From: Thermoleophilaceae bacterium
Lineage (GTDB): Bacteria > Actinomycetota > Thermoleophilia > Solirubrobacterales > Thermoleophilaceae
DNA length: 64,000 nt
Direction of reading: 5' to 3'
NCBI GenBank assembly: GCA_040901445.1
Contig: JBBDYQ010000007.1
Location: forward strand, 62,001 to 126,000
In this document: piece by piece, positions 55,562-61,563 of the stretch
Numbering within the stretch: the first letter of the stretch is position 1
Layout: every line of letters starts with the position of its first letter
Translations under genes and position numbers: made by a program
Notes under the pieces: model-generated
What the model was told of the DNA's origin: nothing
Databases searched by the model: none
What the model saw: only the letters and a program-made list of their open reading frames with translations

Positions 55562-56725
55562 CTAGCCTCCCAGCGACCCGCGCAGGCGCTCGACCGCTTC
55601 GGTCAGCCGCTCGTCGGGGACGGTGAGGGAGATGCGGAAGAAGCCCTCGCCGTTGGGCCCGTACGCGCCCCCCGGCGAGACGACCACGCCGGACTCCTCG
55701 AGCACCAGCTCGCAGTAGGAGGCCGAGGTGTGGCCGTCGGGCACGGGCGCCCACACGTAGATCGTTCCCTTCGGCTTCGTGACGTCCACGCCGATCTCGC
55801 GCAGGGCGTCGCAGACAAGATCGCGGCGGCGGGCGTAGACCTCGCTCATCCGCCGGGGCTCCTGGTCCCCGTCGTCGAGCGCCGCAGCCGCTGCAAGTTG
55901 GACCGCCTCGAACATTCCGGAGTCGATGTTGGTCTTCAGCCGCCAGTAGGACTCGACGGCCTGGGCGTTTCCGACGATGGCCGCCGTCCGCCATCCCGTC
56001 ATGGTGTAGCCCTTCGAGAGCGAGAACACCTCGACGCCCACGTCCTTGGCCCCGGGCGTCTGGAGGAAGCTGGGCGCCACGTAGCCGTCGAACGTGGTCT
56101 CCGTATAGGACGCGTCGTGCACCACGAGCACGTCGTGCTCCCGCGCGAAGGCCACCGCCTGCTCGAACAGTCCGTCGGGGGCGATCGCGCCGGTGGGGTT
56201 GTTCGGGTAGTTGAGGTAGAGCAGCCGGGCGCGCTCACGGTCGGGCTCGGAGATGGCCTGGAGGTCCGGAGCGAAGCCGCGCTCGGGCAGCAGCGGCATG
56301 AGCACGGGGTCGGCGCCCGCCAGCAGCGGACCGCCCGTGTACACCGGGTAGCCGGGGTCCGCGGCCAGCGCGGCGTCGCCTGGATCGAGGAATGCGAGAT
56401 TGAGGTTGAAGATGCACTCCTTGGCCCCGAGCGCCGGCACGATCTCGGTTGCCGCGTCGAGGGTCACACCGAAGCGGCGCTCGTAGAAGCCCGCCATCGC
56501 CGCGCGGAACTCCGGGCGCCCGCGGTTGGAGGGGTACTGGTGAGTGCCCCCGTCGCGGGCGGCCGCCGCCAGCGCATCCACCACGAAACCTGGCGTCGGC
56601 GTATCCGGGTCGCCGATGCCGAGGCTGATCACGTCCACCCCCTGCTCCCTCTTCGCGGCGACCTTGCGCTCGAGCTCGGCGAACAGGTACGGCGGTATGC
56701 GCTCCAGGCGCCTACTGGGCTTCAT
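55562..56725 (-). CDS. dapL: LL-diaminopimelate aminotransferase-like PLP enzyme
   Basis: A 387-aa class I/II aminotransferase. The start RIPPYLFAELERKVA and VISLGIGDPDTPTP are typical of the DapL branch, which makes LL-diaminopimelate directly from tetrahydrodipicolinate. The PLP site is VFSLSKGYTMTGWR with the Schiff-base lysine, LYLNYPNNPTGA is the conserved asparagine region, and FFRISLTVPDER holds the carboxylate-binding arginine. The gene overlaps the 3' end of dapF by 14 bases, which supports the role in lysine/DAP synthesis; a generic aspartate aminotransferase remains possible. Confidence 0.85.
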   Translation of the reverse strand: MKPSRRLERIPPYLFAELERKVAAKREQGVDVISLGIGDPDTPTPGFVVDALAAAARDGGTHQYPSNRGRPEFRAAMAGFYERRFGVTLDAATEIVPALGAKECIFNLNLAFLDPGDAALAADPGYPVYTGGPLLAGADPVLMPLLPERGFAPDLQAISEPDRERARLLYLNYPNNPTGAIAPDGLFEQAVAFAREHDVLVVHDASYTETTFDGYVAPSFLQTPGAKDVGVEVFSLSKGYTMTGWRTAAIVGNAQAVESYWRLKTNIDSGMFEAVQLAAAAALDDGDQEPRRMSEVYARRRDLVCDALREIGVDVTKPKGTIYVWAPVPDGHTSASYCELVLEESGVVVSPGGAYGPNGEGFFRISLTVPDERLTEAVERLRGSLGG

Positions 56726-57530
56726 GCAGCTCCTTCACGAATTCGGCGGCCAGCTCGCCCGCGTAAACGGGGCGCGCCCAGCCGGTCAGGGTCACGTGCA
56801 GGTCCTCCCCCACCTCGACCTCCAGGTCGCCGCCGTCGAGGTGGACGGTCACCGGGCTGTCAGCACCCTGCAGCACGGCGGCGATGGCCGCGCCGCTCGC
56901 CCCGGTGCCCGACGACATCGTCTCCCCAACCCCGCGCTCGAAGATCCGCGCGCTGATCTCACCGGCGGAGTCGCGGCGCCAGAACGACACGTTGGTGCGG
57001 TTGGGGAAGAGCGCGGTGTCGGACTCGATCGGGGCTCCGTAACGGGCCAGGTCCAGATCCCCCAGCCCCTCGTCGAGGCGGATGGCGCACTGCGGGTTGC
57101 CGATCTCGATCGAGGTGTAGGCGAACTCCCGGCCGGCCGAGGTGAGCGTGTCGTCGCGCAGGTGCCTGGCCCGCCCCATGTCCACGGTGCAGGTGTCGGG
57201 GCCGGTGATGCGGGGGCGGATCTCTCCGGCGGGGGTGCGTATGGAGAACACGTCCTGCCCGGTCCAGCCGCGGTGGCGCAGGTAGAGGATGGCCTCGCGG
57301 GCCCCGTTGCCCGAAAGCTCGGCCTCCGATCCGTCCGGGTTGAAGATGCGCAGGTCCGCCACGAAGCCGCGCTCCTCCGTCCTCGACAGCAGCAGGACGC
57401 CGTCGGACCCCACGCCGCTGTGAGGCGCGCAGATGCGGCGGATGCGCTCGGGCGTGAGCTCGACTGCAAGCGCGTCCTCCTCGAGGATCACGTAGTCGTT
57501 GCCAAGCGCGTTCCACTTCTCGAACCTCAC
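56712..57530 (-). CDS. dapF: Diaminopimelate epimerase-like protein with both active-site Cys replaced by Ser
   Basis: A 272-aa protein with the DapF fold: start FEKWNALGNDYVI, SGVGSDGVLLL, FNPDGSEAELSGNGARE, EIGNPQCAI, and ERGVGETMSSGTGA. DapF epimerises LL- to meso-diaminopimelate using two cysteines, at CGNGAR and ACGTGA. Here both are serine (Ser73 and Ser207); the codons are TCG in both places. All substrate-binding residues around them remain. The enzyme may therefore be weak, have a different mechanism, or have lost racemase activity. GTG 57530 matches the family start. It overlaps dapL downstream. Confidence 0.85.
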   Translation of the reverse strand: MRFEKWNALGNDYVILEEDALAVELTPERIRRICAPHSGVGSDGVLLLSRTEERGFVADLRIFNPDGSEAELSGNGAREAILYLRHRGWTGQDVFSIRTPAGEIRPRITGPDTCTVDMGRARHLRDDTLTSAGREFAYTSIEIGNPQCAIRLDEGLGDLDLARYGAPIESDTALFPNRTNVSFWRRDSAGEISARIFERGVGETMSSGTGASGAAIAAVLQGADSPVTVHLDGGDLEVEVGEDLHVTLTGWARPVYAGELAAEFVKELHEAQ

Positions 57531-57665: not shown

Positions 57666-58256
57666 ATGAAGAAGCTGACCATCGGTTGTGCGCTCGCCGC
57701 GTCGCTGGCCCTGCCGGGCATCGCCTCGGCCGCCGACCGCCACGAGGTGCGCGAGGCCGCGCGGGAATGCCGCGCAGACCGTGCGGCGATGGGCGCCGAG
57801 CAGTTCCGCGCCGAGCACCGCAGCCTCGGCCGCTGTATCCGGGCCACGATCCGGGCGGACCGCCGTGCCGACCGCGCCGCCCGCCGCCAGGCGGTGCGCG
57901 ACTGCCGCGAGCAGGACCTGCGCGGGCGCGCGCTGGCGCGCTGCATCCGCGGTGAGGTGCGCGAGGCCGAGGCCGAGGAGCGCCAGGAGGCCCGCGCCGA
58001 GCGCAACGCCGCCCGCGAGTGCCGCGCCGAGCGCGAGGCCATGGGCGAGGACGCGTTCCGCGAGCAGTACGGCACCAACCGCAACAAGCGCAACGCGTTC
58101 GGCAAGTGCGTCTCGTCGAAGGTGGCCGAGGACGAGGAGAGCGACGGTTCCGAGCCCGAGGACGACGAGGGGCAGGATGCCCCCGCCGCGCAGGGCGAGG
58201 GCCGCGGGCGTCCGGACGGCGCCGGACGGCCGGATAACGCCGGCCGGCCCGCCTAA
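57666..58256 (+). CDS. Secreted cysteine- and arginine-rich repeat protein
   Basis: A 196-aa exported protein of unknown function. A signal peptide (1-22, ASAADR) precedes a charged helical region with an internal duplication: ARECRADRAAMGAEQFR (32-48) and ARECRAEREAMGEDAFR (117-133), with a weaker middle unit around 75-94. Cysteines fall in pairs (35/57, 80/93, 119/148), suggesting one disulfide per helical hairpin. The C-terminal 45 residues are acidic then Gly/Arg/Pro-rich. AAGGAG precedes ATG 57666, and a 32-codon upstream reading frame ends on that ATG (TGATG). Confidence 0.75.
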   Translation: MKKLTIGCALAASLALPGIASAADRHEVREAARECRADRAAMGAEQFRAEHRSLGRCIRATIRADRRADRAARRQAVRDCREQDLRGRALARCIRGEVREAEAEERQEARAERNAARECRAEREAMGEDAFREQYGTNRNKRNAFGKCVSSKVAEDEESDGSEPEDDEGQDAPAAQGEGRGRPDGAGRPDNAGRPA

Positions 58257-58359: not shown

Positions 58360-59259
58360 TCAGGACGGTCGGGCGAGGATCTCGGCTGCGGCGTCGGCCG
58401 CATCATGGCCGGTCACGTCCAGCGTCACGGCGTTCGGCAGCTTGCGCATCCAGGTGAGCTGGCGGCGCGCGTACTGGCGCGTGCGGCGCTTCATCCCCTC
58501 CACGTCGCCGGCGAGCAGCTCCTCGAAGCCCAGCGCCTTGCGCGCGGTGTGCGATGCACCCGCCGCGTCTGCCGCCCGCACCTCCTCCACCGCGCCTGCC
58601 GCCACCATGGCGTCCACGCGGGCGTCGATGCGCGCGTAGAGCGCCTCGCGCGCCGTTGTGAGCCCGGCGAGCAGCGTGGGCACCCGGACGTCGGCGGTCC
58701 ACAGCTGGGACTCGGCGGGATGCGGCTCCAGCTCCCCAAGCTCGTGCAGCTCCAGCGCCCGCACGATCCGGCTGCGATCGCCGGGGCCGATGCGCTCCGC
58801 CGCCCAGGGCGCGCGCTCGGTCAGCTGTGCGTGCAGCGCCTCCGGCCCGCGTTCCGCCATCGCCGCCTGCAACCGCTCGCGGAGCTCCGGCGGCGGCTTG
58901 GGTCGCAGGTCGAGCTCCGTCAGGGCCGCTCGCAGATACAGCCCGGTGCCGCCCACCACGATCGGCCGCCGCCCGGCCGCCAGGGCGGAGTCGACCTCCG
59001 CGTGCGCCAGGGGCATGAACTCGCCCACCGAGAACGTCTCGGTGATGGGCACGAAGCCCACCAACCGGTGCTCGAGCAGCGACTGCTCGGCCACCGTGGC
59101 GGCGCCCGTGAGCACCGGCATCCCCTCGTACACCTGCAGCGCGTCGGCGGAGATCGCCACCGCGTCCTCGCCGTGCTCGCGCAGGGCGCCCGCCAGGGCC
59201 AGGGCCACGCCTGTCTTGCCGACCCCGGTGGGGCCGAACAGCGCGAGGACCTGCGTCAA
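58360..59259 (-). CDS. miaA: tRNA dimethylallyltransferase
   Basis: A 299-aa enzyme adding a dimethylallyl group to A37 of tRNAs reading U-starting codons. The P-loop is LFGPTGVGKTGVA, the DMAPP-region motif is ISADALQVYEGMPVLTGAA, VVGGTGLYLRAAL follows, and the tRNA-binding RTRQYARRQLTWMRKLP helix is near the C-terminus. The only start in place is TTG at 59259, overlapping the miaB stop (TTGA), since no ATG or GTG lies between it and the P-loop. It shares an operon with miaB, which methylthiolates its product. Confidence 0.94.
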   Translation of the reverse strand: MTQVLALFGPTGVGKTGVALALAGALREHGEDAVAISADALQVYEGMPVLTGAATVAEQSLLEHRLVGFVPITETFSVGEFMPLAHAEVDSALAAGRRPIVVGGTGLYLRAALTELDLRPKPPPELRERLQAAMAERGPEALHAQLTERAPWAAERIGPGDRSRIVRALELHELGELEPHPAESQLWTADVRVPTLLAGLTTAREALYARIDARVDAMVAAGAVEEVRAADAAGASHTARKALGFEELLAGDVEGMKRRTRQYARRQLTWMRKLPNAVTLDVTGHDAADAAAEILARPS

Positions 59260-60578
59260 GCGACGCGGGCGAGGAGCTGCTCCTCGCCGGCGAGCGTCGT
59301 GCTCGTGGCGGCGGTGATCTCCACCTGGGTCAGCTCACCCGGCGCGGCCAGGCCGGTGAAGTTGACCGTCTTGTTGTGACGGGTGCGCCCGCGCAGCCTG
59401 GACGGGTCCGTGCGCGACGGGCCCTCCACGAGCACCTCCATCGTGCGTCCCACGAAACGCCGGGCGCGCTCGGTGGCGCGGCGCTGCACGAGCTCGACCA
59501 GCCGCGCCATGCGCTCGCGCTTGACCCGGTGTGGCAGCTGCCCGTCCAGGTCCACGGCGGTCGTGCCGCGGCGCGGGGAGAAGATGAACGTGAACGCCGA
59601 GTCGTAGCCCACCTCGTCCACCACCTCGAGCGTCTCCTCGAACTCGGCCTCGGTCTCGGTCGGGAAGCCCACGATGATGTCGGTGGTGAGCGCGCAGTCG
59701 GGCACGTGCTCGCGGATGAGCGCCACGCGGTCGAGATACCGATCGCGGTCGTAGGTGCGGCGCATGGCCTTGAGGATGCGGCTGGAGCCGGCTTGCAGCG
59801 GCAGGTGGATGTGCTCGCACAGACCGGGGAGCTCGGCATGCGCCCGGACCACGTCCTCCTTCATGTCCTTGGGGTGCGGGCTGGTGTAGCGGATGCGCTC
59901 GACGCCCTCGACGGCGTCCACCATCGCGAGCAGCTCCGCGAAGCTCGTCTTGGCGCCGGTGGGCAGGTCGCGCCCGTAGGAGTTCACGTTCTGGCCGAGC
60001 AGCGTGACCTCGCGCACGCCGTCGGCGGCCAGGCGCTCCACCTCGGCCACGAGCTCGGCCGCCGGGCGGCTGACCTCCCGCCCGCGCGTGGAGGGCACGA
60101 TGCAGTACGAGCACACGCAGTTGCAGCCCACCGAGATCTGCACCCAGGCCTGGAACTCGCGCTCGCGCCTGGTGGGCAGGTGCCCGGTGAAGCCCTCGAA
60201 CTCGAAGTAGCCCTGGGCCGTGAGGCTGTCGCTGGTGAGGAACTCGGCCAGCTTGGGGAACTGGCCCGGGCCGAACGCCACGTCCACGAACGGAAAGCGC
60301 TCGAACACCTCGTCCTTGAGCGACTGCGACCAGCAGCCGCCGATGCCAACCACCCGCTCGGGATTCTCGGACTTCAGGCGCTTGGCCTCGCCCAGATGCC
60401 CAACAAGCCGGTTGTCCGCCGACTCGCGGATCGAGCAGGTGTTGAAGAGGATGAGGTCCGCGGCGTCGCGGGCGGCCGCCTCCGCGTAGCCGAGCGACTC
60501 GAGCATGCCCTTCATGCGCTCGGAGTCGTGCTCGTTCATCTGGCACCCGAACGTGGTCAGGTGATACGTCTTGCCCAC
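59256..60578 (-). CDS. miaB: tRNA-2-methylthio-N6-dimethylallyladenosine synthase
   Basis: A 440-aa radical SAM methylthiotransferase. The first cluster cysteines are in FGCQMNEHDSE, FNTCSIRESA and GIGGCWSQ. The radical SAM C-x3-C-x2-C is in VGCNCVCSYCIVPSTRG. The TSPHPKDM and LPLQAGSSRILKAMRR elements are conserved, and a TRAM domain occupies about 372-440. GTG 60578 immediately precedes the family N-terminus GKTYHLTTFGC. Part of the rny-GHMP kinase-miaB-miaA unit. Confidence 0.95.
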   Translation of the reverse strand: MGKTYHLTTFGCQMNEHDSERMKGMLESLGYAEAAARDAADLILFNTCSIRESADNRLVGHLGEAKRLKSENPERVVGIGGCWSQSLKDEVFERFPFVDVAFGPGQFPKLAEFLTSDSLTAQGYFEFEGFTGHLPTRREREFQAWVQISVGCNCVCSYCIVPSTRGREVSRPAAELVAEVERLAADGVREVTLLGQNVNSYGRDLPTGAKTSFAELLAMVDAVEGVERIRYTSPHPKDMKEDVVRAHAELPGLCEHIHLPLQAGSSRILKAMRRTYDRDRYLDRVALIREHVPDCALTTDIIVGFPTETEAEFEETLEVVDEVGYDSAFTFIFSPRRGTTAVDLDGQLPHRVKRERMARLVELVQRRATERARRFVGRTMEVLVEGPSRTDPSRLRGRTRHNKTVNFTGLAAPGELTQVEITAATSTTLAGEEQLLARVA

Positions 60579-60594
60579 AGCCGCGAGGATAGCC

Positions 60595-61563
60595 CTACGC
60601 CTCGGCGCGGCAGCCATGCGGGTCGATGGCGAAGGGCAGCTCGGGAGCGTCCATCGCCCTGCGGACGGCATCGGCATCCTCGGCGTAGGCGAGCAGGAAG
60701 CCGCCCCCGCCGGCGCCCATCAGCATCACGGCCCGCGCCCCGGCGTCCAGGGCCCGCCGGCGCAGCGCGTCGATACCCGCCGTGACCGCCGCCGGCGAGC
60801 GGGCCCGCTTGTTCTCCCACTGGGCGTTCATGAGGTCGGCGCAGCGCGCCATGTCGCCGGCCTCCAGCGCCGACCGCGTCTCGAGAGCCAGCTCCTTCGT
60901 GCGGTGCACGGTGCGCTCCACCCCCGGATCGCCGCTGACCTGCTGCGCGAACAGCCCGGACGCCGAGCGCGTCTGGCCCGTGTAGAAGAGCAGGAAGCGG
61001 TCGCGCAGCTCGGCGAGCACCGCGTCGGGGAGGGCAAGGGGCTCCACCGTGACGGTGTCGTCGGGGTTGAAGCTGTAGGCGCAGATGCCGCCGTGGGCCG
61101 CCACGTACTGGTCCTGCTTGCCGATCGTGTTGCCGAGGATCTCGATCTCGAGCGCGCACGCGCGCTCGGCGAGCTCCGCGGGCGGCGTGACGGCGCGGCC
61201 GCCCGCCAGGTCGAGCGCCCGGAGCAGGCACACGGTGTAGGCGCCCGAGGACCCCAGGCCCGTGCCGGCCGGCACGTCGGCCACCGAGGCGATCTCCAGC
61301 GGCCGGCCGTTCCAGTGGTGCTGGAGCGCCGCGCGCAGGATCGGGTGCTCCACCTCGGCGGGGTCGTCCACCTCCTCCCAGGCGTTGTGCTTCAGCCGGA
61401 AGCGCTCCTGGAACGCCGCCGTGGTGAGCATGCAGACGTAGCGGTCGATGGCCGCCGAGACCACGAAGCCACCGTGCTCGCGGTAGTAGGAGGGGAGGTC
61501 GCTGCCGCCCCCGCCGAAGGAGACGCGCAGCGGCGCCCGGGTGACGATGACACGGTCGCTCAC
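60595..61563 (-). CDS. GHMP-family sugar kinase
   Basis: A 322-aa small-molecule kinase. The N-terminal TRAPLRVSFGGGGSDLPSYY is typical of D-glycero-D-manno-heptose 7-phosphate kinase-like enzymes. The ATP loop is PAGTGLGSSGAYTVCLL, EILGNTIGKQDQYVAAHGG contains the active-site acid, and the third motif is LMGAGGGGFLLAY. Heptose-phosphate, fucose or another sugar 1- or 7-phosphate kinase are the likely functions; the other heptose genes are not in view. GTG start, 13 bp after rny. Confidence 0.88.
   Translation of the reverse strand: MSDRVIVTRAPLRVSFGGGGSDLPSYYREHGGFVVSAAIDRYVCMLTTAAFQERFRLKHNAWEEVDDPAEVEHPILRAALQHHWNGRPLEIASVADVPAGTGLGSSGAYTVCLLRALDLAGGRAVTPPAELAERACALEIEILGNTIGKQDQYVAAHGGICAYSFNPDDTVTVEPLALPDAVLAELRDRFLLFYTGQTRSASGLFAQQVSGDPGVERTVHRTKELALETRSALEAGDMARCADLMNAQWENKRARSPAAVTAGIDALRRRALDAGARAVMLMGAGGGGFLLAYAEDADAVRRAMDAPELPFAIDPHGCRAEA

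Follow-up and report, generated by a model that had tools for sequence, protein, structure and literature searches.

The standard account of cofactor-independent epimerases rests on a thiol and a thiolate whose pKa values are tuned to each other's task. Canonical diaminopimelate (DAP) epimerases (DapF, TIGR00652), such as those of Haemophilus influenzae (PDB 1gqz) and Anabaena (9mro), carry the catalytic pair Cys73 and Cys217 (H. influenzae numbering), and His159 is also listed as a catalytic residue (PMC3581254). Serine at one of the two cysteine sites is known from the engineered H. influenzae variants C73S and C217S (2q9h, 2q9j). Two enzymes of the proline racemase superfamily are related by fold class: the Ser/Cys 4-hydroxyproline 2-epimerase B9JQV3, with a natural catalytic Ser at the first position, and the Ser/Thr trans-3-hydroxyproline dehydratase B9K4G4, which has no catalytic Cys. 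The stretch of Thermoleophilaceae bacterium DNA analyzed here (64,000 nucleotides, hereafter the window; order Solirubrobacterales) contains a dapF gene whose product has Ser, Gln, and Ser at the positions of Cys73, His159, and Cys217. This Ser/Gln/Ser DapF is real, occurs order-wide, and is not explained by known biochemistry; no published Ser/Ser DapF was found in the literature searched. We infer, with a probability of about two in three (0.68), that the window gene encodes a working DAP epimerase, converting LL-DAP to meso-DAP with two serines in the role of the thiol/thiolate pair.

Active site and pathway context of the window DapF

The window protein scored 187.5 bits against the TIGR00652 equivalog model, above its curated cut-off (114.65), and its only Pfam match was PF01678. 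Its length was that of canonical DapFs. An AlphaFold2 model (predicted local distance difference test score, pLDDT, 97.1) showed the two-domain DapF fold, and its best PDB matches were DapFs (TM-scores of 0.82–0.88 against the canonical enzymes, the highest value being for Anabaena 9mro). As stated in the original prediction, both catalytic cysteines were replaced, with Ser73 and Ser207 aligning with Cys73 and Cys217 of the H. influenzae enzyme. A third catalytic change, from His159 to Gln147, had been overlooked; His was invariant at this site in all canonical relatives examined. The DAP-contact residues (Asn11, Asn64, Asn157, Asn190, Glu208, and Arg209 in H. influenzae) corresponded to Asn11, Asn64, Asn145, Asn180, Glu198, and Arg199, which were invariant in a 44-sequence alignment of Cys and Ser forms. 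The claim that the surrounding binding residues are intact thus held for the substrate contacts but not for the catalytic His.

In the model, helices 74–86 and 208–220 are predicted to begin directly after Ser73 and Ser207. The catalytic cysteines of canonical enzymes have the same placement, and the helix dipoles are thought to stabilize the thiolate (PMC12039745). By sequence and fold, the window protein is a DapF, but with neither the Cys73/Cys217 pair nor His159 present it falls outside the canonical two-cysteine DAP epimerases. It was also distinct from the proline racemase superfamily (PF05544), which had no match in the window genome. In Ser-type members of the proline racemase superfamily, including B9JQV3, Asn stands three residues after the catalytic Ser, whereas in the window protein it stands at +2 (Ser73-Gly-Asn75-Gly). 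B9JQV3 further differs in family and substrate and in retaining one Cys; natural Ser/Cys DapFs likewise carry their Ser at the first of the two sites. Cys148, conserved in 92 of 96 order members, was not favored as a new base, since 40 of 63 canonical forms also have Cys at this site and it adjoins the active-site residue without occupying its position. Changes of Glu182 to Ser and Trp197 to Phe were not claimed as catalytic co-substitutions, as H. influenzae DapF has Gly and Tyr at these sites.

A second, canonical dapF, a possibility raised with the original prediction, was not detected in the window genome (25 contigs, 3.54 Mb, listed as 100% complete), nor was any other second DapF. DapF was present in 118 of 120 genomes of the order (at least 90% complete), and in 113 of these 118 there were exactly two half-domain matches, equivalent to one protein. 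In records of Solirubrobacter taibaiensis and Patulibacter americanus, the only DapF was of the Ser/Gln/Ser form. Of the extra copies, the one examined was a Cys-type DapF-like paralog (locus L175; genome G023, contig C165, frame from about 824) with aminotransferase, ATP-grasp-like, and glutamine-amidotransferase-like genes as neighbors, in what looks like a natural-product biosynthetic cluster.

LysA, which decarboxylates meso-DAP to lysine and requires meso-DAP, was found in the window genome, and a search of 41 genomes detected it in 40. Meso-DAP dehydrogenase (Ddh), the known bypass that yields meso-DAP independently of DapF, had no match in the window genome and was present in only 2 of the 120 order genomes (G061 and G064; f3, g24), in each case alongside the order's DapF. 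All members of the Solirubrobacterales are stated to have a meso-DAP wall (PMC3035278), and meso-DAP was measured in the wall of a Solirubrobacter (PMC10722151). Other cofactor-independent racemase families offered no general substitute for DapF: the proline racemase family was absent from the window genome and present in 8 of 61 order genomes, and the Asp/Glu racemase family was represented in the window genome by a single copy, presumed to be MurI, which may be bifunctional. Separately, six genomes of at least 95% completeness (G003, G017, G033, G052, G116, and G128) had no match to the Asp/Glu racemase (MurI) family as a source of D-glutamate; Chlamydia DapF is reported to racemize glutamate too (PMC5885031). 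The original prediction left a choice between a wall with LL-DAP, an altered reaction, and an epimerase that uses serine; the last was best supported because the protein is the sole DapF, dapL is its neighbor, LysA is present, Ddh is absent, and meso-DAP is reported for the order.

Distribution and evolution of the serine forms

Related-locus and whole-genome searches yielded 192 distinct DapF proteins. Residues 73, 147, and 207 were Ser/Gln/Ser in 96, Cys/His/Cys in 66, Ser/His/Ser in 21, and Ser/His/Cys in 8 of these; the remaining protein (L094) had Ser/Gln and ended before the third site, and the combination Cys/His/Ser did not occur among the 192. The Ser/Gln/Ser form was found in 96/96 complete, distinct Solirubrobacterales orthologs examined, all from the window's order and close metagenome-assembled genomes (MAGs). 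Position 73 was Cys in 63/63 canonical relatives compared. Relatives with Cys at both positions, which the original prediction named as a refuting observation, were encountered only among more distant members of the class (0/96 in the order).

The Ser73 codon was TCN in 92 and AGC in 4 of the 96 Ser/Gln/Ser proteins, and the Ser207 codon was TCN in 74 and AGY in 22. A switch between TCN and AGY needs two changes, yet Ser was retained, and Ser itself is therefore under selection. Third codon positions accounted for 59% of nucleotide differences between close pairs of the Ser/Gln/Ser form, versus 62% for the Cys form; these counts replaced pairwise ratios of nonsynonymous to synonymous substitution (dN/dS, median 0.43), which were not used since dS was near saturation in these high-GC genes. 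Although read errors at both TCG codons are conceivable, the 96/96 agreement excludes read error and decay, and the use of both Ser codon families, the full-length frame, and the normal constraint point the same way. Sequencing error or pseudogene decay thus has a negligible probability, and the view in the original prediction that random decay hardly explains the paired change was borne out.

Maximum-likelihood trees inferred with and without the trait columns agreed in their state-change counts. Ser/Gln/Ser proteins formed one clade (support 100/99), whose sister in the first tree was family f11, with Ser/His/Ser (support 96/94); both Ser changes therefore preceded the change from His to Gln. 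The minimum numbers of state changes, which do not separate gain from loss, were at least 7 at position 73 and at least 4 at position 207. Ser/His/Ser needed four changes and Ser/His/Cys three, all forced by well supported branches. A single shared origin of Ser/Ser was ruled out by the trees, also when the trait columns were excluded, and all characterized DapFs found had Cys.

Ser/His/Cys DapFs occurred in families f9 (L195, L196, L198, L199, L200), f34 (L244, L252), and f16 (L258), and f9 and f16 each contained Cys/Cys in addition to Ser/Cys proteins. Judged from these sequences, natural Ser/His/Cys DapFs are candidate evolutionary intermediates, and the path was likely one in which the first residue changed first. 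Two f34 genomes of 1.2–1.4 Mb (G360 and G381) encoded a Ser/Cys DapF and had no LysA match; in these organisms DAP may serve the wall only. A separate Ser/His/Ser clade (L098, L099, L102, L103, L105–L112) was hosted by Aquificota, Bacillota, Methylomirabilota, Planctomycetota, Verrucomicrobiota, and one Bacteroidota MAG, and supplied the sole DapF in 7 of 12 genomes searched, the rest having another DapF or a weak extra match. Among genomes with Ser/Ser or Ser/Cys DapFs, LysA was detected in 23/25 and Ddh in 0/25; these were two slightly different sets of genomes, both of which contained the two named order members.

Proposed mechanism and competing explanations

In the proposed mechanism, DAP would be held by the unchanged Asn/Arg/Glu set, with Ser73 and Ser207 predicted by the model to lie on opposite faces of the substrate alpha-carbon, at two helix starts. 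Ser73 would take the proton from the L center, a role that LL-aziDAP alkylation implies for the first Cys of canonical enzymes, and Ser207, perhaps polarized by Glu198, would give a proton back from the other face; alkoxide formation, or help by Glu198 or the substrate amine, is possible. The first residue was taken as the base for the LL-to-meso direction because LL-aziDAP alkylates the first Cys of DapF, while DL-aziDAP alkylates the second. The assignment of proton removal to Ser73 and return to Ser207 follows from analogy with the Ser/Cys 4-hydroxyproline epimerase, which shares the fold, is active, and has a first-position Ser that acts in the trans-to-cis direction (PMC4113996). On balance, we consider it probable that some natural DAP epimerases reach physiological rates without thiols, two serines replacing the pair thought essential to cofactor-independent amino acid epimerases, and that the change evolved several times, probably via Ser/Cys intermediates.

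Several points weigh against a serine-based epimerase. With a pKa of about 16, the serine hydroxyl is a poor base for DAP epimerization. Single Cys-to-Ser mutants of PddB had <0.1% activity, as likewise reported for Mycobacterium tuberculosis DapF (PMC8225329), and Cys-to-Ser mutants of the histidine racemase HisR were strongly impaired (PMC11602996). No active Ser/Ser epimerase of the DapF fold was found in the literature searched, and the reports of a meso-DAP wall concern the order and not the window organism itself. The PddB and M. tuberculosis mutations were made in thiol-built sites, and the change from His to Gln in the order's DapF suggests that its site was rebuilt. Similarly, the H. 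influenzae C73S and C217S variants are laboratory single mutants, whereas the window form is a natural double Ser variant with His159 replaced by Gln and is fixed order-wide.

The chief rival explanation is that the Ser/Gln/Ser protein lost epimerase activity and was kept for another role (DAP-binding regulator, DapL partner, or partner of another protein, in the way that E. coli DapF serves RppH), with an unrelated enzyme making meso-DAP. All three altered positions are catalytic, Cys enzymes mutated to Ser lose nearly all activity (PMC8225329), and E. coli DapF has a second role via RppH (PMC4227774), for which a complex structure (6d13) exists. We nevertheless regard such a loss as unlikely: it would demand an additional epimerase throughout the order and a further one for every independent Ser/Ser lineage, the known alternatives (Ddh, proline racemase family, and the presumed MurI) are not general, and both the substrate-contact residues and the identity of the serines are strictly retained. 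Turnover of a different substrate, or a different reaction, has precedents in the Ser/Thr members of the proline racemase superfamily, which dehydrate trans-3-hydroxy-L-proline (PMC4113996), and in Fusobacterium nucleatum HisR, a histidine racemase which illustrates that DapF annotation can mislead (PMC11602996). The invariance of the DapF substrate contacts, the overlap with dapL, the retention of the neighborhood of the Cys form, and the status of sole DapF in a genome with LysA make this improbable, and B9K4G4 itself differs in being a dehydratase with one working base and another substrate. A wall with LL-DAP would dispense with the epimerase altogether; DapL yields LL-DAP directly, and other actinobacteria have LL-DAP walls, but this would not explain LysA, whose family needs meso-DAP. 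As it is also contradicted for the order (PMC3035278, PMC10722151), we consider it very improbable.

An order-wide, sole-copy Ser/Ser DapF, combined with reported meso-DAP, would mean that either the thiol pair is dispensable or a further DAP epimerase exists, and either would be new. Aziridine and thiol-reactive inhibitors of DapF, a target for antibacterials, act on its Cys, and naturally Cys-free forms would show how far this approach can reach. Lineages with mixed Cys/Cys, Ser/Cys, and Ser/Ser forms provide ready material for the question of the cysteine requirement. A Cys-free site might confer resistance to oxidation, since in Corynebacterium glutamicum DapF the two catalytic cysteines form a disulfide that abolishes activity (PMC5296763).

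Locus and gene neighborhood

Coordinates of dapF, its altered codons, and neighboring genes in the window
Feature	Position	Strand	Remarks
dapF, diaminopimelate epimerase family, Ser/Gln/Ser form	56712–57530	–	272 amino acids, GTG start; complete frame
Ser73 codon TCG, at catalytic Cys73 site (H. influenzae numbering)	57312–57314	–	in ELSGNGAR
Gln147 codon CAG, at catalytic His159 site	57090–57092	–	GNPH motif changed to GNPQ
Ser207 codon TCG, at catalytic Cys217 site	56910–56912	–	in TMSSGTGA
dapL, LL-diaminopimelate aminotransferase	55562–56725	–	start codon 56723–56725, within dapF end
miaA, upstream of dapF	58360–59259	–	PF01715; part of conserved neighborhood
miaB, upstream of dapF	59256–60677	–	UPF0004, Radical_SAM, and TRAM domains; part of conserved neighborhood

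The gene order miaB-miaA-dapF-dapL was observed at most Solirubrobacterales loci and in same-class Cys/Cys members among loci L092–L101. Because this neighborhood is common to the Cys/Cys class members, the Ser-form dapF is their ortholog and not a paralog substituting elsewhere. Between miaA and dapF, on the opposite strand (57666–58256, +), lies a gene for a small, secreted-looking, Arg- and Cys-rich protein that had no Pfam match and was absent at the related loci compared. The overlap of dapF with a DapL-type gene, noted in the original prediction, amounted to 14 bp, and the dapL product passed the threshold for NF006756, a subfamily of LL-DAP aminotransferases (527.6 bits, cut-off 507), but stayed under that of TIGR03540 (511.6 bits, cut-off 593).
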